From NCBI RefSeq assembly GCF_029633865.1, contig NC_079215.1, positions 49,607,343-49,671,342 of the forward strand: DNA of 64,000 bases, written 5' to 3'. This document shows, piece after piece, positions 2,681-61,440 of this stretch. The translations under genes and the position numbers were made by a program. The DNA is from Lampris incognitus (lineage: Eukaryota; Chordata; Actinopteri; Lampriformes; Lampridae). The stretch's first letter is position 1; each line of letters opens with the position of its first letter. The notes beneath the pieces were generated by a model. It saw only the letters and a program-made list of their open reading frames with translations. It did not search any database and was not told where the DNA came from.

Positions 2681-4529
<1,849 letters not shown>

Positions 4530-10647: not shown

Positions 10648-12550
10648 TCACCTTTTTTTTGCGAGCGCATCAAAGTCCGGTGTGAATTTTGTTGTGGCAA
10701 TTCGCAGGGCAGAGCTCAAGTGTTCATCAGTAAGCTGGGCTCTGTGACGTGCTTTGTTGATGTTCGTCACACTGAACGTTTGTTCACACACATAGGTAGA
10801 GCCAAATAACACCAGCTTCTTCTGTGCCATCTCTCGGATGTTTGGAAACTTGGTCTCGTTCAGTGAGGCATATAACTCATCCAGTTTGACAGAGTTGAAT
10901 TTCTCATTCAAGACAGAGTCACACTGGAGATCAATCAGCTCCAATTGCAGTTCCTGTGGTGCTGTCTCATAGTTGAGTGACAGGGGACATGACACCAGCT
11001 GCTGTGACTTCATAATCTTTTCAAAACCAGAGAATCGACGACGGAATTCTCCGTGCAGGTCGTTCAGTGATTTGTTGTATTTCTTTGCATGCTGAGCGCC
11101 TCTTCCAGCGTCGCTAGTGTCAGGAAATGAGCGAATGATTTGTTCATTACCTGCCTTGAGAACAAAGTTAACTTGGCTTTGAAGGCTTTCACGTTCAAGT
11201 ACAGTTCATGCAGCAATACATCCTTCCCTTGTAGCTTCACGTTCAGCTCGTTCATGTGTTCCAAAATGTCCACAGCGAATGCAAAATCGCAAAGCCAGCC
11301 TGCGTCGTTCAGCTCAGGAAACTCGTCGGCTTTCCCCATTGACTCCAGAAACGAGCCGATCTCCCATCTGAGCTGCCACACTCGCTGCCACACTTTCCCC
11401 AAACTTAGCCAACGGACACTGGAGTGGCAAAGTAAGCCATGGTGGTCAGCACCAGTTTCTTCAAGGAATTTAATGAATTGACGATGGCTAAGTCCCCTCG
11501 CCCGTGTGAAGTCCATAAGTGTTACAACTGGCTTCACTACGTGATCAAGCTGCAATAGTTTTGCACAGGGCTTCCTGGTGGATAATACTGTAGCGAATTC
11601 GGGGGGCAACCACAGGAACTGCCGCGGCCGGGACGCGAACCCGTATCGCAGGAGACATCACTAACCGCTAGACTAAAGGGTCAGACCCGCCAGCCAGCGG
11701 CCAGCGTGTCTTCTTATCCATGCACGTTACAATACAATGTAGGAAAATTACCTCCGACTCAGGTCCTCTTCTTTCACCTTGTCCTGGATTCTTTTCAGCA
11801 GTCCGACGTCTTTTCCTGTTAAATTTGGCGATCCATCTGTGCTGACATTTGCCAGTTTACACCAAGGTAGCTTCAGCCTCTCAGTGCAACCAGACAGCCT
11901 GTCGTATAAATCTGATCCTCTCGTTGTGCCTTTCATGGACTCCATGGATAAAAACTGCTCCGTGATTTCAAAATTGTCATTAATTCCTCTGACAAAAATT
12001 AAGAGGTGCGCAGTGTCCTTATGTCACTGCTTTCATCCAGTGCTAACGAATAAAACTTAAAGGACTCTGCTTTCTCGATTAACCCACAAGCCACGTCTTC
12101 GTCGGTCAGTTCTTTTCGGCGAGTCACTCTTAAGCGCAACAAGCTTATGTTTTCAAGTTTGCTTTTGCTCTCTGGACACAGAAGACTTGCTGTCTCCACC
12201 ATGCATTGCTTCAAATACTCTCCGTCAGAGAAAGGCTTGCTCTCTTTCGCTAATGTATATGCCAGTAGATAACTTGCCTTTGTGCTGGACTCCTGAATTG
12301 TAGACTGTCGGGTAAAAATACTTTGCCGAGACTGTAAATTGGCTACTAACCTCGAAGCTGTACTCGCCCTTTTCTTGGGATGACAGATTGCTAGGTAGTT
12401 AGCATGCTTGGTGGAAAAGTGGCGGCTGATATTGTATTCCTTGAATACCGCAACGTTTTCTTGACAAATCAGACATATGGCCTTTGATCGGACTTCAGTG
12501 GAAAAACATTTTTTGCCGCCCACTCTTTCTTAAAAACCCGGCACTCGCTG
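10648..12550 (-). pseudogene. hAT transposase remnant (GTF2IRD2/ZBED-like)
   Basis: Four minus-strand stretches in different frames make up one decayed transposase. The N-terminal piece (about 12,523 down to 12,003) has a BED-type zinc finger with CLIC and a HFSTKH motif, then ALDESSD, the start of the RNase H-like catalytic fold. The next (11,945-11,748) reads ANVSTDGSPNLTGKDVG. The third (about 11,588-11,064) contains LDHVVKPVV and SVRWLSLGKVWQRVW. The last (11,013-10,648) is the C-terminal hAT dimerisation segment, with EQTFSVTNINKARHRAQLTD. At least two frame changes plus the solo LTR insertion make it inactive. Relation to GTF2IRD2-type hAT proteins is from remembered family sequence. 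Confidence 0.85.
11589..11731 (-). mobile_element. Solo LTR with internal Pol III A and B boxes
   Basis: A 143-bp TG...CA segment interrupts the hAT transposase and is flanked by the 4-bp duplication ATAC (11,585-11,588 and 11,732-11,735), as expected for an LTR-retrotransposon solo LTR. On the minus strand it carries TAGTCTAGCGG (11,665-11,675), a perfect A-box, and GGTTCGCGTCC (11,631-11,641), 10 of 11 with the B-box consensus, at tRNA-like spacing. The same layout, start (TGTAA) and a shared AAGACACG motif occur in the LTRs of the element at 60,613-60,984, so it is a diverged relative. Confidence 0.8.
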
Positions 12551-19727: not shown

Positions 19728-20981
19728 ATGAAACACAACAAAACGCTAAGCATGGAGGCTTCTCATTCTGCCTACGTTGGCACCGAGCCCACCACAGCCA
19801 TACCCACCGCCTCCCCAACGTCTTCATCGCCCAGCTACCTGCAGTTCTTCTGGGAGTACCAGGACAATGCTGTCATCGTCGAGCATTACAACTTTACTGG
19901 CAAGCTGCAGGGCGACCGCTACCGCGAGGGGCTCAAACCCGAGGGCATTGCCTTCCTGGTGGTGTGTCTTCTCATTGTTCTGGAGAACGCGGTTGTTCTC
20001 CTCGCCATCTGGAGAAACAAGAAATTCCACCTGCCCATGTATTACTTATTGGGAAACCTGACTCTGTCAGATCTGCTCGCTGGGATCACATACATGGCCA
20101 ACATCATCATGTCAGGCCCCAACACTTTAAAACTGACACCTTTGCTATGGTTCATCAGAGAGGGAGGCGTCTTCATCACACTGGCCGCCTCTGTCATCAG
20201 CTTGCTGGCCATCGCCATCGAACGTCATGTTACCATGGTGACCATGAGGCCGTACCATGGAGCAAAGCGGGGACGGATGTTAGCACTGATTGGTGCAAGT
20301 TGGGCCCTGGCAGGGTTTTTGGGAGTCCTGCCAATTCTGGGATGGAACTGCATCCACAGACTGGACCAGTGTTCAACAGTCCTCCCACTATATGCTAAGA
20401 GTTACATCCTTTTCTGCGTTTCCGTGTTTAGCGCGGTACTGCTAGCCATAGTGGTCCTTTATGCTCGGGTTTTTCGCATTGTCCGTACCAATACACAACG
20501 TCAGAGACTGGGGCTGTCTGGTAGCTTGAGGAAGGGCTTGGCACGGAAGTCACAGAAGTATATAGCCTTGCTCAAGACAGTCACTATTGTCCTGGGTGTC
20601 TTCATTGCTTGTTGGCTGCCACTCTTCCTTCTCCTCCTCCTGGATTTCTTCTGCCCCAACCGCAGCTGCCGTCTACTATACAAGGCAGACTACTTCCTGG
20701 GTGTCGCCATGGTGAACTCGCTGCTCAACCCCATCATCTACACTCTCACCAGCAAGGACATGAGGAGGGCCATCCTCAGGCTGCTGTGTCGGCCATGTCT
20801 AATGACCAGTGATGGCCAGGTGAAGAAGATTGGGGTTCCCTTCCTGGAGTGCAGTTTCAGTAAGACAGAGGTAGCCTCCCAAAAGTTAGATGGGGGGCAG
20901 GAGACAACTATCTCATCTGGGAATGTCATCACCACCCCTTCCCCTATTAAGGCACTCTACCCCAAGCTCTTCAAATCCTGA
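19728..20981 (+). CDS. s1pr5: Sphingosine 1-phosphate receptor 5
   Basis: Class A GPCR for the lysosphospholipid S1P at the plasma membrane; in mammals S1PR5 couples to Gi and G12. The 417-residue frame is intronless, as in the family. Seven hydrophobic segments begin near residue 73. Visible motifs are the N-glycosylation site NFT (55-57), the ligand-binding pair R144-E145 (WFIREGG), ERH at 165-167 in place of DRY, CWLP (295-298), NPIIY (334-338) and a likely palmitoylation pair C354/C357. HYNFTGKLQG and RLDQCSTVLPLYAK match S1PR5 better than S1PR1-4. The first ATG has a weak context. The second (19,752, residue 9) has A at -3 and G at +4 and may be the real start, giving 409 residues. keap1b follows on the same strand, as in human. 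The Ser/Thr/Pro-rich N-terminus is longer than in mammals. Confidence 0.96.
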   Translation: MKHNKTLSMEASHSAYVGTEPTTAIPTASPTSSSPSYLQFFWEYQDNAVIVEHYNFTGKLQGDRYREGLKPEGIAFLVVCLLIVLENAVVLLAIWRNKKFHLPMYYLLGNLTLSDLLAGITYMANIIMSGPNTLKLTPLLWFIREGGVFITLAASVISLLAIAIERHVTMVTMRPYHGAKRGRMLALIGASWALAGFLGVLPILGWNCIHRLDQCSTVLPLYAKSYILFCVSVFSAVLLAIVVLYARVFRIVRTNTQRQRLGLSGSLRKGLARKSQKYIALLKTVTIVLGVFIACWLPLFLLLLLDFFCPNRSCRLLYKADYFLGVAMVNSLLNPIIYTLTSKDMRRAILRLLCRPCLMTSDGQVKKIGVPFLECSFSKTEVASQKLDGGQETTISSGNVITTPSPIKALYPKLFKS

Positions 20982-33000: not shown

Positions 33001-36000
33001 GATTCAAATCTTCTGCATGATGCCAGCTCATAAATGGATTAAGCATTTGACTTGTTTTAGTTAATGTTGCTCTCAGTTGTTCAGGTCAAGGGGTGTTGTG
33101 GTACAGACAAACAGTTTTCAATTGTTCTATTGCGGTCTCTGTAGGCCAGCCTTTGTACTTCAAACCTGAGAGTTGGTGCCCTGCATCTTCCAAGTGTGTG
33201 TGCTACATGAGTCATAGCATGTAAGGATGTATCAGTGGCCCAATTTACCTTGGGGACTTTGTTCTAGACATGTACCAAATGTCTTTCTTAAATTCCCAAG
33301 GTAACTTTGTTCTTTCCACTTGTTTATTTACACACCTAAATAAGTACTGCTCAAGGGCCCAGCACGTCTGTTAAAAATGTCATTAAATATTTTCATCTAC
33401 TCCTTTGTCCTCCTGTTTACAGGTAGCAACCCAGGAGGAGTTTTTCAATCTGTCCCACTGCCAGCTAGTTACCCTCATCAGCCGTGATGAGCTCAATGTG
33501 CGCTGCGAGTCTGAGGTCTTCCAGGCATGCGTGGCGTGGGTGCGCTATGACCGAGAGAACCGGCGACCTTACGTCCAGGCTTTACTCCAGGCTGTCCGCT
33601 GCCATTCCCTTACACCTAACTTCCTGCAGGCTCAGCTACAGTCTCTAGACTGGGATCCCCAGTGTAAAGACTACCTGGCCCAGATCTTCCAGGACCTCAC
33701 CCTCCACAAGCCCACCAAAGTCAACTCCTGTCGTACCCCCAAGGTGCCGCAGCTCATTTACACAGCAGGGGGTTACTTCCGTCAGTCTCTCAGCTACCTG
33801 GAGGCGTACAACCCCTGTACGGGAGCCTGGCTAAGGCTAGCCGACCTCCAGGTACCCCGGAGTGGTCTGGCAGCCTGTGTGATCAGCGGGCTTTTCTATG
33901 CTGTCGGTGGAAGAAACAACGCACCTGATGGAAACATGGACTCGAATACATTGGACTGCTACAACCCCATGAACAACTGCTGGCTGCCCTGCGCGCCAAT
34001 GAGTGTGCCCAGGAACCGCATTGGAGTCGGCGTTATCGATGGGATGATCTATGCAGTGGGCGGGTCACATGGTTGTATTCATCACAATAGTGTGGAAATG
34101 TAAGTGGATGGGTGATTCGATTGGCAGTGATCACAGCTATTTTAAATGGATTTGCATTTGGTTTTGTGTCATGTGGCTATTCTCAAAGATGGGATGAGTT
34201 TTAAATATTTTGATTATTATGATTTTTAATTTTTCTGGGTTTCGGCTTAGTAGCACGATCAGGATCTGACTGAAAGCAGTGGAAGTCTTAATTAAGACAA
34301 TCTTATTGTATTCGTTCATGTTAAAGGGATTTTCGTCACATTCTCAGGAAATAAGTCGATTATATTTGGAAAATGGTGTTCATACAGCTGCTATTGTATA
34401 CTTTTAAAGAATAAGAAACTGTCTTTTTAAAAATCGCTTTCCAGGTAGCTGTAATGGAAAAGTGTATATTTTTAGTGAAGCATTTTTTTTGCACTTTAGA
34501 ACACCGCAACTTTTTCGAACATAAATTGGTACTTCTTCATTCAAGTCAAATGTTATTGCCTGCCAATACATCTCACCAACAAATGTCTCATGTATTAATC
34601 CTGCTCCACAGGCATGATTCAAAATTCCCAGACAGGCCCAGTAACAAATTATGAATTCGAAAATGGATGCATGCCTTACGTATCAAGTATATATCCAAGT
34701 ATCATATTTATGAGTCACTGCTGATAATTCACCTGTGTGAGTGTCTCGGTCCTGTTCCTCAACTGTGCTGTAGACATGAAGCAGTGACGAATGACAAATA
34801 TTAACAGGGCAAACAAAAGACTGTTGAAAGGCCAAATGCCTAAACTGGTGGAATGTCCACCTCAAATTTCACAATAAAAATTGAATGTGTTAGTTCAGCT
34901 GAGCGCGGGTAGCGAAACTGGATGACAACTGATTTGTGTTCATGTCCTGCTCCTTAGGTATGACCCGGAGAGGGATCAGTGGCAGCTTGTAGCCCCCATG
35001 TTGACGCGGCGAATCGGTGTGGGGGTGGCTGTCATCAACCGGCTGCTGTACGCAGTTGGGGGTTTCGACGGGACCCACCGGCTCAGCTCGTCCGAGTGCT
35101 ACAACCCAGACAAGGATGAGTGGAAAACCATGGCAGCCATGAACACCGTTCGTTCTGGAGCTGGTGAGAAAGAAATGGAACAATGTGGTCACATCAAAAG
35201 TTTCCATCTACAGAGAGTCAGCTTTTGTGGAATTAAAAAAAAAAAATCTTTCAGAATGACAATAATACAATGGGCTTGGAACAGAATTTGTGAATTATGA
35301 AAATGAGAGGGCTCATAAATGGCTTCTTTATGTTCTTTGTTCAAAATAAAGTGGCTGTGGCAAGTGAAGGAGTTCAAGTATCTCGGAGTCTTGTTCACGA
35401 GTGAGGGTAGGATGGAGCGGGAGATGGACAGGCGGATTGGTGCAGCATCAGCAGTAATGCGGATGTTGTGACTGTTGTGGTGAAGAGGGAGCTGAGCCGG
35501 AAGGCAAAGCTCTCAATTTACCAGTCGATCTTCGTTCCAACCCTCACCTATGGTCATGAGCTTTGGGTAGTGACCGAAAGGGTGAGATCGCGGCTGCAAG
35601 CGGTTGAAATGAGTTTCCTCCGTAGGGTGTCTGGGCTCAGCCTTAGAGATAGGGTGAAGAGCTCGGACATCCGGAGAGAGCTCGGAGTAGAGCCGCTGCT
35701 CCTTCGCATCGAAAGGAGCCAGTTGGGGTGGTTCGGGCATCTGATTAGGATGCCCCCTGGGGGCCTTCCTCTGGAGGTTTACCAGGCACAGCCAGCTGGG
35801 AGGAGACCCCGGGGTAGACCCAGAACTTGCTGGATGGACTTCCATGTCCAGTCTGGCCTGGAAACGCCTTGGGATCACCCAGGAGGAGTTGGAGGGCATT
35901 GCTGGGGAGAGGGACGTCTGGGGAAGCAGCTGATGATGGGATGAGGTGTGGAAGGATTTTTATCCATTCCTTGACTCTTATTGGTGTAGGAGAGTTGGGC

Positions 36001-48700: not shown

Positions 48701-51700
48701 ATCACTCTGGGGGTGGAGGGGTCTTGTGCGAGTCTTAGTGATTCCCAGCCGCTCATGCATGGTGGAGAAAACCCTGGACTCAAAATTTCTCCGCTGGTCA
48801 CTATGGATGGACTCCGGGACCTCAAGCCTGCTAAACAACCCCTCAATCAAGGTATTAATGACCCCCTGGTCTGTCAGTGCATAGGCTTCTGGCCATTTAG
48901 TGAAGTAGTCCACAACAGTGAGTATGAAGCGGTTCCTTTGAGTTGTGCGTGGGAATGGCCTCACAATGTCAGTACCTACCTGCTACATGGGCTCCCCTAC
49001 CAGAAATTGCTGTAGTTCAGCCCTTGACTGGCCCTGTGGCCCTTTGCAAGCTGTGCAGAGGTTGCGGCGCCTGCAAAAGTCCTCAACGTCCCCCCTCAGT
49101 CATCCCAAGTAGAAGGCTTGACGCAGTTGGTGGAGCGTCTTCATCACCCTAAAGTGACCCGAGCCTGCAGAGCCATGCATGGTTTTGAGAACCGCCTCCT
49201 GCATCCCCCTGGGCATACCACTTGCCACCTCTTCTCCCCAGTTGCTGGCTCCACCCAGGCTCACTGGAGGATCACATCTAGCAGCCGCAGAGTCTTGAAC
49301 TTGTCCCGCAGCCCTTTGGTCCATGGAGAGAGAGCTGCCACCTCCTCCCATGGCAGTCGCTGCTGTGCACCCACCCACAGCATCACAGGCTGCAGGTCCT
49401 GGTCCTGTCGTTGCTCTGTGGACCAGTCCGTAACAACCACCACCTGCAGCTTTCTATCACCAGCACTGCCATCCTGCACACTTCTCTGTCCCACTCGTCC
49501 ACCCCCAGGACCAGCTCATGTTCCCTGGCTTACTGCAGTCACAATACCGGCAGCCCTCTGAGCTGCATGGCTGACAAAACGGCATGTCTGTGTTGCCATA
49601 CCATTCTCCTGTATGTTGGGTTACGATGAACTCGTAGCACTGCAACTCCCCCAACCAATGAGCCAACTGCCCCTCTGGCTCCTTGAATGTCATCAGCCAC
49701 TACAAAGAGGCTTGATCATTGTGTATGGTGAAAGGCCGGCCACATAGGTACTACTTAGTGTCAGATGGCAAAGACTACTGCCAGCAGCTCCCTGTGAATG
49801 ACACAATACCATCGTTCAGCTTTGCTCAAAGCTTTGCTGTAATAGGCCACAACTTTCTCTGTGTCTGGCCACACCTATGACAGGACCGCGCTTACCCCCT
49901 CCCCACTCACATCCATATCTAGGACAAAGGGTAAATGGGGGTCAGGGGGCTCCAGGATGGGTGCGCTTGTCAGGGCCTGCTGCAGTGTGCGAAAAGCCAT
50001 TTCTCAGTCCTGACCATAGGAATTGCTGGTCTTTCTGCAGTAACTTGTACAAGAGGGATGCGATGCACAAAACCCCCCGCATAAACTTCCTGTAGTAGGA
50101 GGCCAACTCAAGAAAACTCCATCTCAGAGCAGTAAAGATAGCCTATGCTAACGAGGCAACTGTCCAGTCAACAGCTAGTGTCGGTCCTCCTTTCACAGAA
50201 TGTCCATATAGTTCAATATTAAGTTTACTTCTGTCACTGTTGAAGCATTCACCGGTATTAAGGAACACACTGACGTAAACTTAGAATTCAGCGTTGCTTT
50301 TATTTGCAGCTGTTGTCGGCCACAGCCATGCCTTAAAGATCGCCATTATTATTTTTCCCACACACACAGGTCATCTCTTCTTGCACATAGTTCCGTCCCA
50401 CTAACAATTGACCCGGTAACAGTGCACCACCCCCCAGAACTGCAAAACATCACCCCCAGCTGTGCACAACTAATTCTCATACTCAATGGTGAACTTATAC
50501 ACGCTACAGTATTTATTGGTGAAAAGCTCTTTTCTTTTACTTGAGTATCTACATATATAACTCTTGACTTGTGTCAAAATTTAGCTACAGTAGCAGGAAT
50601 TATCTTCTTGTGTTAGTATGCAAATCAAAACACATTATCATTTATTCATTTTACTATGCACTTATTCTTTCCCTCTTTGTTTTAATTTACAAGTATACCT
50701 ACCTTTCTTCATTCATTCATCACTTTATTCATTCCATAGCTAACACAGGACAAGATTTCCTGTCTCCCAAGCCACTTCACCAGCCCAACCCCAGAAGCCA
50801 TTGACTGCAGCCACATCCGGGACTACGGGGAGAACGAGACATGGGAGCACTCCCTTATAAAGCCTGTGAGCCCCATCATACGGGAGGTGTTTGGTCGTAA
50901 GAACAACCTTGACATCCATCAGTATGTGTTTGTCAACCACTACTGCTATGAGAGGGCTGTTCATTGGTATGGAAAGTACTTTCCGTATCTGGTTGTCATA
51001 CATACTATGATCTTCATGGTAGCCAGCAGCTTTTGGTTCAAATTCCCTGGAACCTCTTCTAAAATAGAGCTCTTTGTCACCATCCTTGGGAAGTGTTTTG
51101 ATTCACCCTGGACCACTCGGGCCCTGAGTGAGGTTTCTGAGGAAAGAGGTGAGGAGAAATTAGTTATTATGAGGAAGAGCACCATGACAAAATCTACCCC
51201 GGATGCACCAGAAGTGGAGGAGGAGACTATGGGACTTCTGCGATCCTCCTCTGTCAAGTCTAATCCAGATAAGAAGAATCCAGAGCCTCAACCAGCTGCC
51301 TCAGTCCTGGATAAAAAGGAAGGAGAGCAGGCCAAAGCTCTGTTTGAGAAGGTGAAGAAGTTCAGAACTCATGTGGAGGAGGCAGACATCTTGTATGTTA
51401 TGTATGTGTTACAGACCTCCCTCAAAGTCTTCAAGTTCCTGTTAATCACTATATACAGTGCTGCACTGGTTCCCAACATTCAGATTGTTGTACGTTGTCT
51501 TGTTCCTCCTGAACTGACTGGTTTTGATATCTATTGCTGTAATCACAACAAGGCCCATCTTTTCTCCAAATTAGCCTACTGCTACATCTGTTTTGTGGGA
51601 GTGTATGGACTTTTATGCATCTACACCCTTTATTGGTTGTTCCATCGACCTCTTAAGGAGTACTCCTTTGAACATGTAAGACTGGAGACAGGTATCAACG

Positions 51701-53055
51701 ACATTCCAGATGTGAAGAATGACTTTGCATTTCTCCTCCACCTCAGTGACCAATATGATGCTCTTTACTCTAAACGCTTTGCCTTCTTCCTCTCTGAGGT
51801 CAGCGAGAGCCGTCTCCGCCAGGTCAACCTCAACCATGAATGGACTGCCAAAAAGCTGCGCACCAGACTCGCAAAGAATGCCAGTGACCGTCTAGAGCTC
51901 CACTTGTTTATGTTACCTGGGCTCCCAGACACAGTTTTCGAGATTCCAGAGGTGGAGTCACTCAAACTGGAACTCCTCACAAATGTCACCATCTCGGGGA
52001 ATGTGGCACAGCTTGGTTCACTCCAGGAACTTGTACTGATCCACTGTCCTGCCAAGCTCCAGCTAGCTGCCCTGATCCAACTCAGGGAGCATCTCAAGGT
52101 CCTGCGTTTGGTGTTTGAGAGTTTAGAACAGGTACCTCTGTGGATGTACAACCTGCACAACCTGGAAGAGTTACATCTAAGTGGCCCTTTGAACAATGAT
52201 GTCTCCCGGAGCACAACTCTGGATTCCCTCAGAGAGCTGAAAGTTTTGAGCATCCTTACCCTCCGCAGCAACCTCACTAAGATACCACCAAGTATAGGGG
52301 ATGTCGCTGTGCAGCTCCAGCGGTTGTGCATATATAATGAAGGTTGTAAGCTCCAAGCCTTTAGCATCCTCAAGAAACTAACCAACCTGGTCTCCCTGGA
52401 GCTGGTGGGGTGTGAGCTGGAGCGTATCCCTAGCGCTGTCTTCAGCTTGTCTAACCTTCAGGAACTAGACCTCAAGGAGAATAAGCTGAACACTGTGGAG
52501 GAGATTCTAAGCTTACAGCATTGTCAGCGGCTGGTGACGCTTCGCCTTTGGCACAACAACATCACCTACATCCCCGAGCACATCAGCAAGCTGCGCTCCC
52601 TGGAAACTCTGGATATCAGCTGGAACAAAATCAGAAATCTCCCCTCAAGGATGTTCTATTGCACCAAACTAAGACACCTGGATGTCTCCCATAACCAGCT
52701 TACCTCCCTCCCTACTGAGGTGGGCATCCTGCAGAGTCTCCAGTTCTTCTCTGCTGCCTTCAACTCTTTGGAGACACTGCCAGAAGAGCTCTTCTCCTGC
52801 AAAAGGTTAAAGATCTTGGCCCTTGGAAACAACCGTCTGACCTCCCTGAGTCCCAGGGTGGCCAACCTGGCTCAGCTAGTCCGACTAGAGCTCAAAGGGA
52901 ACCGTCTAGAATCTCTACCTCTTGAAATAGGACACTGTCCCTTACTTAACCTCATGGGGGTGATTGTAGAGGATAGCCTGGTGAATCAGCTGACGTCAGA
53001 TGTAAGAAACAGAATGTCTGATTTAGATGAGTCAGAAGTTATCAATGAATTGTAA
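42616..53055 (+). CDS. lrrc8e: Volume-regulated anion channel subunit LRRC8E, two coding exons
   Basis: LRRC8 proteins form hexameric plasma-membrane channels (with LRRC8A obligatory) that release chloride and organic osmolytes on swelling. Join 42616-42756 and 50740-53055 gives 818 residues (human LRRC8E has 796). Exon 1 codes [10 protein letters not shown] and TM1 ([20 protein letters not shown]). Exon 2 has extracellular loop 1 with NETW, TM2 ([20 protein letters not shown]), the intracellular linker ([20 protein letters not shown]), TM3, TM4 ([19 protein letters not shown]) and about 15 leucine-rich repeats. [22 protein letters not shown] and [15 protein letters not shown] fit LRRC8E better than A, B, C or D. 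Phase-0 splicing after GCTLQ is a family-conserved site. The ~8 kb intron is filled by mobile elements. Confidence 0.95.
44992..45613. repeat. Unclassified interspersed repeat inserted in the L2
   Basis: Begins near ATGCATTTTATTTATATAGC and GCTTTTCATGCTACTCAAAG. It splits the L2 reverse transcriptase reading, and similar 7-mers border it: AAGACCT (44,985-44,991) and AGGACCT (45,614-45,620). The interior is GAG/GTG-rich, of a type common in fish genomes. I cannot assign a class. Confidence 0.75.
46503..46664 (+). mobile_element. SINE family A, copy 4, 5'-truncated, nested in the L2
   Basis: Only the 3' half of the SINE is present, starting TCACTGTCAGGTGAAAAGAA. It is flanked by a perfect 8-bp duplication GAAAATCC (46,495-46,502 and 46,665-46,672). 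Truncation at the 5' end with an intact 3' end is the signature of target-primed reverse transcription. Confidence 0.9.
47460..47596. repeat. AT-rich low-complexity stretch (AATn)
   Basis: Interrupted AAT/ATT and AT units precede the Gypsy fossil. Confidence 0.8.
47597..47864 (-). repeat. Gypsy fossil, 3' LTR
   Basis: Left-hand LTR on the plus strand; ends GCACGCTACA. The left edge is placed by alignment with the other LTR and the GTATT duplication, so it may be off by a few bases. Confidence 0.8.
50243..50508 (-). repeat. Gypsy fossil, 5' LTR
   Basis: Right-hand LTR on the plus strand; ends ACACGCTACA followed by GTATT. It lies 231 bp before lrrc8e exon 2. Confidence 0.82.
50740..53055 (+). 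CDS. lrrc8e: lrrc8e coding exon 2 (loop 1 to C-terminus)
   Basis: Starts after CATTCCATAG with [11 protein letters not shown], matching the family's VTQDKI..LP. It is open for 771 codons to TAA at 53,053. The leucine-rich region contains regular LxxLxLxxNxL units such as [16 protein letters not shown] and [19 protein letters not shown]. There is no frame break. Confidence 0.96.
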
Positions 53056-59667: not shown

Positions 59668-60200
59668 CCTAAAACGACCACGGGCGGTCAAAATGACCAC
59701 CGGTTTTTAAACTCTATAGTCTGTCAAGCTAAATACACAATTGCGATATTAATGCATTACATGCGTTAGTATGTCTGTTATGAAACTAACTGACACAAAA
59801 ATGACAATTTTAACAACTATAATACTATTTTAAAACAATTTAAACCCCAGAGACATGGTCGAACCTGAATAGCAAAATTGAAAAAGTAAAAATATTACCT
59901 GAAAAACTTAAACAGAAAACACACATTGCTAATCTAACAGACGTAACAAGGCCTGTAAAACGTGAAATGTAAAAAAACGAACTGAAAATAAATATCAAAA
60001 CCGTCCCAAGCAACGACCAGAACACAAAAACTACAAGAACGACCGCGGCCCGCGGTTTTTAAACTCTATATTCCGTCAAGATAAATACCCAGTTGAGATA
60101 CTAATGCATTGCATATGCTAGTGTGTATGTTATGAAACTAACTGACACCAAAATTAACATTTTAACTACTTTTAATACTATTTTTCAAACAATTCAAAAT
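59668..60200. repeat. Direct duplication of a ~165-bp unit
   Basis: Two copies, about 59,675-59,845 and 60,040-60,195, share GGTTTTTAAACTCTATA, TATGAAACTAACTGACAC and AATACTATTTT blocks, each preceded by a CGACC/CGCGG-rich stretch. About 190 bp of AT-rich sequence separates them. The class is not known. Confidence 0.75.
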
Positions 60201-60304
60201 GGCCGCCGTCCAACGCCTGTAAACACTGCAGCGCGTCGGCGGTTGCCATGGTGCGTCTGTAACGGCGTCTGTAACCGAGACATGCTGGCAACAATCAAAA
60301 ATAA

Positions 60305-60600
60305 AGGGCGCCCGGGTAGCGTAGCGGTCTATTCCGTTGCCTACCGACGCGGGGTCGCCAGGTCGAATCCACGTGTTACCTCCGGCTTGGTCGGGCGTCC
60401 CTACAGACACAATTGGCCGTATCTGCGGGTGGGAAGTCGGATGTGGGTATGTGTCCTGGTCGCTGCACTGGCGCCTCCTCTGGTCGGTCGGGGCGCCCCC
60501 AGATCGGCGGAGAGGAGGTGGAGCAGCGAACGGGACGGCTCAAGAGGAGCTGGGTAATTGGCCGGATACAAATTGGGGAGAAAATTGGAAAAAAGGGGGA
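60305..60600 (+). mobile_element. tRNA-derived SINE, family A, copy 6, internally deleted
   Basis: Head GGGTAGCGTAGCGGTCTATT, family body up to GGTCGGGGCGCC, then a direct jump to the 3' part (CAGATCGGCGGAGAGG), so about 130 bp of the family's middle is absent. The tail is A/G-rich. Confidence 0.88.
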
Positions 60601-60612
60601 AAAAATAATAAC

Positions 60613-60747
60613 TGTAAACTACTAATAAGACACGGTAGACCCTAGCTAACGGGTTTGACCCTTTAGCCGAGCGGTTAGCGATGTCGCCTTGTGGTGCAGT
60701 ACACCTCGTCTCGAATCCCGCACCGGGCAATAAAATAACCGGTTACA
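60613..60747 (+). repeat. First LTR of the miniature element
   Basis: TG...CA ends, A-box at 60,664-60,674, B-box-like sequence at 60,708-60,718, and an AATAAA close to its end. Confidence 0.82.
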
Positions 60748-60748
60748 T

Positions 60749-60766
60749 TGGTGGCAGCGGTGGGAT
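60749..60766 (+). other. Primer-binding site matching tRNA-Leu
   Basis: 18 nt beginning TGG directly after the first LTR; it is complementary to the ATCCCACCGCTGCCACCA 3' end of tRNA-Leu as I remember it. Confidence 0.75.
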
Positions 60767-60849
60767 CCGGAAGTGCGCAGATCCTCAGAAGTCTCCTCGG
60801 AGCGCGGAATGACAAAGCGCAAGGGCGCGCTTCCGGGGAGGGTGACGAC

Positions 60850-60984
60850 TGTAAACTACTAATAAGACACGTTAGCCTCTAGCTAACCGATTTGACGCTT
60901 TAGCCGAGCGGTTAGCGACGTCGCCTTGTGGTGCAGTACACCCCGCTTCGAATCCCGCACCGGCCAAGGTAATAATCGGTTACA
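60850..60984 (+). repeat. Second LTR of the miniature element
   Basis: Same start and end as the first, with A-box at 60,901-60,911 and B-box-like GCTTCGAATCC at 60,945-60,955 (10 of 11 with consensus). Confidence 0.82.
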
Positions 60985-61189
60985 TAAAAAAAAATAATAA
61001 TTAAAAATAAAATTTAGATTATTACTCTGCACTGGAAAACGCTAGTTTTGGTTTTTCTAGGACAGAGCAATGAAATTACGAGACAGTCATGTTGATCGTC
61101 CATGTTCGTTTTAGGTAGATCTGATCGTAACTTCCTTTTGTGTGCGCTTGATCTAAAACTAATCTTAATGCTAACACGTGCCATTTTAG

Positions 61190-61440
61190 GAGAGTTCGGG
61201 GAGCGGCGGGTCTATTTCTTTTAGTGTGACGGCGTATAAAACCCACTGAATAGTAGATTGGGAGATCAGTAGTTGAAACGTGAGTAGTGCTCGCTCACAT
61301 CTCTGTCCGGGTTAAACGTTGCAAGTGGCACACAAGCGAACAAAATGCCCATTGTGCCGCTGCAGAAACCTGAGCAGGAAGGTGACCAAACTCTACCTCT
61401 CTTTGTCAAAAGCTTTAGCCAAACAGCACCCTCGTTCATC
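61190..61440 (+). promoter_or_regulatory. Orphan promoter-like segment with TATA-like box
   Basis: A GC-rich stretch (GGGGAGCGGCGGGTC) is followed by CGTATAAAACCC at about 61,230. About 110 bp later there is an ATG in good context (AACAAAATGCCC at 61,345) that opens a ~30-codon frame before a GT run. No downstream exon linked to it was found and the peptide (MPIVPLQKPEQEGDQ) is not recognised. Confidence 0.2.

Follow-up and report, generated by a model that had tools for sequence, protein, structure and literature searches.

The locus and its features

The window, meaning the whole stretch of 64,000 nucleotides that was analysed, is C6:49607343-49671342 of the 1.48-Gb Lampris incognitus genome. 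It holds several open frames with recognizable protein matches, a solo LTR of a second, related family and a 372-bp element composed of a 135-bp LTR, an interior of 102 nt and another 135-bp LTR (Table 1). A reading of the sequence alone had described this 372-bp unit as two gapless 135-bp TG...CA repeats, and its coordinates proved exact. The two LTRs are identical at 120 of 135 positions. A tRNA-Leu-type primer-binding site (PBS) one base past the first repeat, a purine-rich stretch ahead of the second and, in each repeat, a perfect A-box with a B-box of 9 to 10 out of 11 had been described as well, and all of these were recovered. The base between LTR1 and the PBS is a single T, and the bases TGACGAC lie between the purine run and LTR2. 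The target duplication of this copy is imperfect. A SINE-like repeat, tRNA-derived as judged by eye, directly abuts the element with its A-rich end.

The element is a Helenus-type TRIM, an LTR retrotransposon that encodes no protein and whose LTRs contain Pol III boxes of the tRNA type. The kind was described and named by Kojima (Kojima, 2024; PMC10886601). The solo LTR of the second, Helenus-like family has box A TAGTCTAGCGG and box B GGTTCGCGTCC, and frames next to it match a zinc finger and, weakly, a hAT-dimerisation domain.

Table 1. Features of the window, in window coordinates.
Feature	Position	Strand	Remarks
Target duplication of solo LTR	11585..11588	.	GTAT
Solo LTR, second related family	11589..11731	-	143 bp, TG...CA, 23 bases between boxes
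Target duplication of solo LTR	11732..11735	.	GTAT
Frame matching rhodopsin-type receptor	19728..20981	+	
Frame matching BTB/Kelch protein	33387..34103	+	
Frame matching LRRC8	50740..53055	+	pannexin-like plus LRR
SINE-like repeat	~60308..60610		
5' target duplication	60609..60612	.	TAAC, 3/4 match
5' LTR	60613..60747	+	135 bp, TG...CA
Box A, 5' LTR	60664..60674	+	11/11 to TRGYNNARNNG
Box B, 5' LTR	60708..60718	+	9/11 to GGTTCGANTCC, 33 bases after box A
Internal region	60748..60849	+	102 bp, coding region none seen
PBS	60749..60766	+	18/18 complementary to tRNA-Leu-AAG 3' end + CCA
Purine run, candidate polypurine tract core	60835..60842	+	GGGGAGGG, 7 bases before 3' LTR
3' LTR	60850..60984	+	135 bp
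Box A, 3' LTR	60901..60911	+	11/11
Box B, 3' LTR	60945..60955	+	10/11
3' target duplication	60985..60988	.	TAAA, 3/4 match

Copies in the genome

A genome search with the window element returned 2,794 candidates, the best 40 of which were scored and gave 42 matches. Of these, 40 are full or nearly full at 92% or above and two are partial at 91%. A 20-mer of the PBS, with at most 2 mismatches allowed over the whole genome, was found at 3,797 places, compared with 2 for the reversed pattern. Copies were measured in two samples. The first consisted of 40 loci selected by likeness to the window copy, 38 of which were measured, with L036 (tandem) and L039 (broken 3' LTR) set aside; for L002 the measured copy is the second one at that locus (709-1085) and not the search match itself. 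Because this sample had been picked for likeness to the window copy, a second was taken from the first 42 of the 3,797 PBS places, all of them exact and all on C1, which yielded 40 loci. Intact two-LTR copies occupy 25 of these loci. The other 15 comprise copies with truncations or internal deletions, diverged copies, and two tandem, two inverted and two hybrid loci.

The copies have the structure expected of LTR-type multiplication, as had been proposed for the element. Perfect 4-bp duplications flank 27 of the 38 copies in the first sample (one mismatch in 8, more in 3) and 16 of the 25 in the second (one mismatch in 5, more in 4). Duplications of 3, 5 or 6 bp were found in none of the 38 and none of the 25. 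The outcome named beforehand as fatal to the proposal, namely that every copy would be a SINE unit with an A-rich tail and long duplications, did not appear. Insertion sites, judged from the flanks of L001-L040, lean towards NTAG/NTAA with A/T-rich bases on both sides. Within the element, the 18-mer of the PBS is identical in 35 of 38 copies and the final 25 interior bases are identical in 27 of 38. Exact 20- and 25-mers of the element have no match in IMG/VR or in prokaryote contigs, as expected for an animal repeat.

LTR-LTR divergence (K2P) ranges from 0.015 to 0.121 in both samples, with medians of 0.038 in the first and 0.054 in the second. The window element is an old copy, standing at the top of this range (0.121, the highest of 38). 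An exchange of LTRs between Helenus copies, suspected from this value, was unsupported. At the 15 sites where the two window LTRs differ, the majority base is in the 5' LTR at 10, in the 3' LTR at 4 and in neither at 1.

Promoter boxes and transcription

The LTRs were scored against the standard consensus words for box A and box B. The boxes are 33 bases apart in both window LTRs. Their joint score at tRNA-like spacing was reached by 2 of 2000 dinucleotide shuffles of LTR1 and by 0 of 2000 of LTR2, and on this count a chance origin of the boxes was rejected. ARAGORN, in its bacterial code setting, predicted no tRNA gene in the whole window, and Rfam gave no tRNA match over 60200-61200 at E up to 10; the tRNA resemblance is thus confined to the boxes and their spacing. 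Among the 76 LTRs of the 38 copies, box A scores 11/11 in 74 and is exactly TAGCCGAGCGG, the form in both window LTRs, in 65. This family also has the TRGCY...YGG feature of box A that is typical of most Helenus families. Box B is less regular. Its best score is 9/11 in 65 LTRs, 8/11 in 9 and 10/11 in 2, and it reads GTATCGAATCC in 57 of the 76, two positions off GGTTC. The window copy itself has GTCTC and GCTTC at that position; in this the family departs from Helenus as described. The published statement that GGTTC is conserved in box B stands in a sentence on most Helenus LTRs (Kojima, 2024; PMC10886601), and we take GGTTC as typical of Helenus and not as a criterion for exclusion.

Two further observations bear on how the element is transcribed. 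A TTTT run occurs in none of the 38 copies, with 14.4 copies expected from shuffles, and in 1 of the 25 copies of the second sample; as the copies share descent and do not count independently, this deficit is only suggestive. AATAAA occurs in 5 of the 76 Helenus LTRs, and it is carried by the LTR of a second element, LTR-B, treated below. On sequence evidence, the boxes in the LTRs suggest transcription of the element by Pol III. The polymerase would start in the 5' LTR, ahead of box A, and continue through the PBS, the interior and the 3' LTR. Since no TTTT would halt it, both ends of the RNA would carry the segment between the start site and the end of the LTR, and this repeat would be usable for the first strand transfer. 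Transcription would pass the 3' LTR and go on to the first TTTT in the flank; the extra RNA would do no harm, as copying takes in the LTR part alone.

It is also conceivable that the element is a TRIM transcribed by Pol II, its boxes being a functionless relic of a SINE or tRNA insertion. The weak box B of the 57 LTRs and the empty Rfam and ARAGORN searches fit such an origin. The rarity of AATAAA in Helenus LTRs, when LTR-B has it, and the absence of TTTT from the 38 copies do not, and they make Pol II transcription doubtful. The boxes also appear to be kept in 23 diverged matches of 72-83% identity (box A 9-11/11, box B 8-10/11, 32 bases between the boxes in 15 of the 23 and GGTTCGC in many), which is weak evidence because these matches were selected for covering box A and the best pair of boxes was picked from each without a shuffle control.

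The tRNA-Leu primer and its fossils

A 22-mer had 7 exact matches in the genome, and ARAGORN found a single full tRNA gene among them, L047. This is a tRNA-Leu-AAG gene whose 3' end, with CCA added, is complementary to the PBS base for base. The 18-nt site therefore aligns at 18/18 with a tRNA-Leu of its own genome, and the contrary result, a site that matches no tRNA 3' end, did not occur.

Sequence of tRNA-Leu through its CCA is joined to an LTR end at 6 places in the genome (at most 3 mismatches; control 0). Three of these fusions were read. L046 involves a Helenus LTR, L042 a diverged Helenus LTR and L044 an LTR-B, so both families carry tRNA-Leu fusions. In L046 the order is Helenus LTR, interior bases 1-55, 43 bases of tRNA-Leu with CCA and an inverted Helenus LTR, between flanks GTTG/GTTT. 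L051, L057, L135 and L148 likewise contain Helenus or LTR-B sequence as inverted dimers or with inverted tails. L051 is an inverted dimer with a perfect 4-bp duplication, CTAG/CTAG; the flanks of the inverted L057 do not match. At L041, bases 1-30 of tRNA-Leu (50-79) and bases 38-82 (1478-1522) lie on the same strand 1.4 kb apart with a partial Helenus LTR between them, possibly a tRNA-Leu gene split by insertions.

A Gypsy family as probable helper

LTR-B was first seen in the two hybrids of the second sample, L074 and L086, where it replaces the 5' Helenus LTR. It is about 255 bp long, starts TGTAACC and ends CGGTTACA. A genome search with it gave 583 candidates, the best 40 of which were scored, and 30 loci were read. 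Twelve of these have LTR-B followed by Helenus interior (one, L088, is L086 itself), 6 have LTR-B followed by T and the PBS (one with a mismatch) and then an interior of another kind; the remaining 12 are 3' or solo LTRs. Solo LTR-Bs are flanked by 4-bp duplications in 4 of 4 cases checked.

Pairs of LTR-B on C2 and C10 delimit elements with total lengths of about 5.5 and 6.2 kb. The C2 element encodes protease, RT, RNase H and integrase in Gypsy order; the C10 element encodes RT, RNase H and integrase, with RT before integrase as in Gypsy. This Gypsy family and Helenus have the primer site, the LTR ends and the 4-bp duplications in common. On the 5' side the two agree over 27 bases, 8 at the end of the LTR and 19 at the start of the interior. 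The Helenus machinery is probably supplied by this LTR-B Gypsy family of about 6 kb. Past the PBS, the Helenus interior gave no significant match to four Gypsy pieces, which leaves the packaging of Helenus RNA unexplained.

Two other contacts between the families were noted. The last 27 bases of LTR-B (L086) resemble, in antisense, bases 52-77 of the Helenus LTR, the region of box A, with 85% identity across 27 bases (E 0.001) and a score that none of 1000 single-base shuffles reached; they are perhaps an old inverted piece. At L090 only a few bases separate the end of a complete Helenus copy from an LTR of LTR-B Gypsy that follows it.

Hybrids and composites

Junctions between the two families were counted over the whole genome at no more than 2 mismatches, and the reversed controls gave 0 each. 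The end of LTR-B is joined to Helenus interior at 199 places and to its own Gypsy interior (a single subtype out of two or more) at 69, while the end of the Helenus LTR is joined to Gypsy interior at 10. On the 3' side, the end of the Helenus interior joined to the start of LTR-B and the end of the Gypsy interior joined to the start of the Helenus LTR were each found 0 times genome-wide; these 3' patterns have no genome-wide positive control, and the native 3' junctions from which they derive are present in the copies read.

Twenty of the 199 loci were fetched, and all have at least part of LTR-B, Helenus interior and at least part of the Helenus LTR, in that order. Two are tandem run-ons and nine are truncated, interrupted or inverted; these were left out of the duplication test. 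A perfect 4-bp duplication was found around the whole unit in 16 of the 21 hybrids tested, 9 of 12 in one set and 7 of 9 in the other. Shift controls in the set of 12 gave 1 at 3 bp and 0 at 5 and 6, and the set of 9 gave 0. In the 5 hybrids of the 21 that have no perfect duplication is L096, which continues into further Helenus interior.

Larger composites were also found. At least 6 of the 10 junctions from Helenus LTR to Gypsy interior lie 188-239 bases behind a junction from LTR-B to Helenus. The composites fetched (6 of 6) have LTR-B, Helenus interior, Helenus LTR and Gypsy interior, LTR-B being represented by 57 bases in L127. The outer flanks of a composite on C3 are ATAT/ATAT; its 3' LTR, about 6 kb away, probably belongs to the same insertion.

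The hybrids could have descended from a single amplified lineage. This was rejected on the similarity of their LTR-Bs to other LTR-Bs and on the scatter of their Helenus parts. The LTR-Bs of hybrids have a mutual identity of 0.9878 (55 pairs) against 0.9875 to those of non-hybrids (209 pairs), in a comparison set of 30 loci from a similarity search that understates diversity and counts the hybrid L113 as a non-hybrid. In trees of both parents, the hybrids are dispersed.

Proposed strand transfer at the primer-binding site

The junctions are best explained, we infer, by plus-strand transfer between co-packaged templates at the common primer site. The plus strand of LTR-B Gypsy would end in a PBS copied from the tRNA. 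In the same particle it could pair with a Helenus minus strand at the latter's PBS end and be extended, and the product would consist of LTR-B, Helenus interior and Helenus LTR, with the PBS again at its end. If this product then moved on to a Gypsy minus strand, the composites would result; a move to another Helenus minus strand would yield tandem arrays. Such transfer predicts exchange on the 5' side and none on the 3' side, and the junction counts agree.

Taken together, a Helenus TRIM with Pol III read-through, an LTR-B Gypsy helper and strand transfer at the PBS that makes hybrids, composites and probably tandem arrays is the reading preferred here, with a probability of roughly 0.85. A more general proposition is likely too, although it is held with less confidence: that in particles shared by a Gypsy helper and a Pol III-type TRIM, plus-strand strong-stop DNA passes regularly from one molecule to another at the common tRNA primer site, making hybrids, composites and TRIM tandem arrays before integration, so that a TRIM copy may have a 5' LTR that does not stem from its own RNA.

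Reverse transcription could also have made the hybrids in another way, if minus-strand synthesis, on reaching the PBS, had jumped to a read-through RNA of LTR-B. LTR elements are known to switch templates (PMC1950507; PMC5668417). The hybrids, however, start at the start of LTR-B with a target duplication, and a read-through template would tend to bring flanking DNA with it, which makes this route unlikely. That the hybrids formed only once the copies had integrated, through recombination or gene conversion among them, is decidedly unlikely. The 27 common bases across the LTR end and the PBS are where an exchange by homology would fall, and tandem arrays are commonly ascribed to recombination (PMC11899658). 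Yet the perfect duplications around 16 of 21 whole hybrids are what is expected if the hybrid predates its integration, the hybrids sit at dispersed places in the tree of each parent, and 199 junctions are many for 27 bases of homology.

Transfer of the plus strand between molecules touches on several published accounts. Second-strand transfer has been described as generally intramolecular, in a paper that argues for exceptions (PMC5651808). A model of complex insertions was built on template switching in the R region, and the term PBS does not occur there (PMC1950507). The origin of TRIM tandems is left open in one study (PMC11899658) and given two possible routes in another (PMC7215508). An earlier account of helper/TRIM hybrids at the PBS was not found by title in the open-access literature, which is weak evidence that there is none.

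What the junctions record

How the dependence of TRIMs on a helper is maintained is not known according to Kojima, and the animal Gypsy link of Helenus rests there on likeness of the PBS region (PMC10886601). The Lampris incognitus genome offers a more direct record of helper use, in about 200 junctions between helper and parasite, and most of the intact hybrids tested carry an integrase-type duplication around the whole hybrid. This record bears on whether second-strand transfer nearly always stays within one molecule (PMC5651808) and on whether TRIM tandem arrays arise in reverse transcription or by later recombination (PMC7215508; PMC11899658). Strand transfer at the PBS may explain these arrays. 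If transfer between molecules is common, divergence between LTRs may misdate some copies.

Comparison with known systems

SINEs derived from tRNAs have box A and box B at tRNA spacing, are copied by LINEs and are without LTRs, a PBS or 4-bp integrase duplications. The window family is like them in its boxes and differs in the other three features, and its copies show neither an A-rich or simple tail nor longer, variable duplications. An ordinary SINE of this type that forms a chance tandem pair with a spacer is hardly credible and was rejected: the boxes would suit it, as would the A-rich end of a SINE-like repeat just ahead of the element, but the copies are LTR-interior-LTR units with TG...CA ends, 4-bp duplications and an 18/18 PBS.

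Among TRIMs with a Pol III-type promoter, Cassandra of plants also has this promoter in its LTR and forms tandem arrays. Its promoter is of the 5S type and not the tRNA type, and according to Kojima no helper is indicated for it (PMC10886601). Rfam gave no 5S match over 60200-61200 at E up to 10, so the Cassandra feature is lacking here. Ajax, a nemertean TRIM with partial 5S sequence, is likewise of the 5S type and differs further in its 5-bp duplications (PMC10886601).

The closest likeness is to Helenus, a name that a literature search found, like TRIMp3 in this sense, only in PMC10886601. The sequence-only reading knew of no well-described vertebrate counterpart with tRNA-type boxes. Such a counterpart exists, since Helenus as described includes fish families, listed from coelacanth, sturgeon, paddlefish, cyprinids, a loach, a catfish and milkfish; the kind is known, and the claim of novelty fails. 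Zebrafish LTR-11_DR, likened to the window family by description and not by sequence identity, agrees with it in size, in tRNA-type boxes in short LTRs and in thousands of copies. Helenus elements are non-coding TRIMs of less than 1000 bp that have two LTRs; the window element has 372 bp (135-102-135), and no coding region was seen in it. Helenus interiors have a polypurine tract at their 3' end, where this element has the purine run GGGGAGGG, set 7 bases away from the LTR. Their PBS is complementary to a tRNA 3' end, tRNA-His, -Leu or -Lys in vertebrates, and their animal duplications are of 4 bp, as in the family described here; tandem arrays and a suspected Gypsy helper are further points in common (PMC10886601). 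For tRNA-derived LTRs, that paper used Censor against tRNAs and SINE2, and in the window family the boxes stand at exact tRNA spacing, beyond chance, with no Rfam or ARAGORN tRNA match. The family differs from Helenus as described in its box B, which departs from GGTTC. The proposed mobilisation by Gypsy is supported here by genomic evidence from the PBS, LTR ends, duplication length and hybrids, and the helper family is named from hybrids and composites and not from PBS likeness alone.
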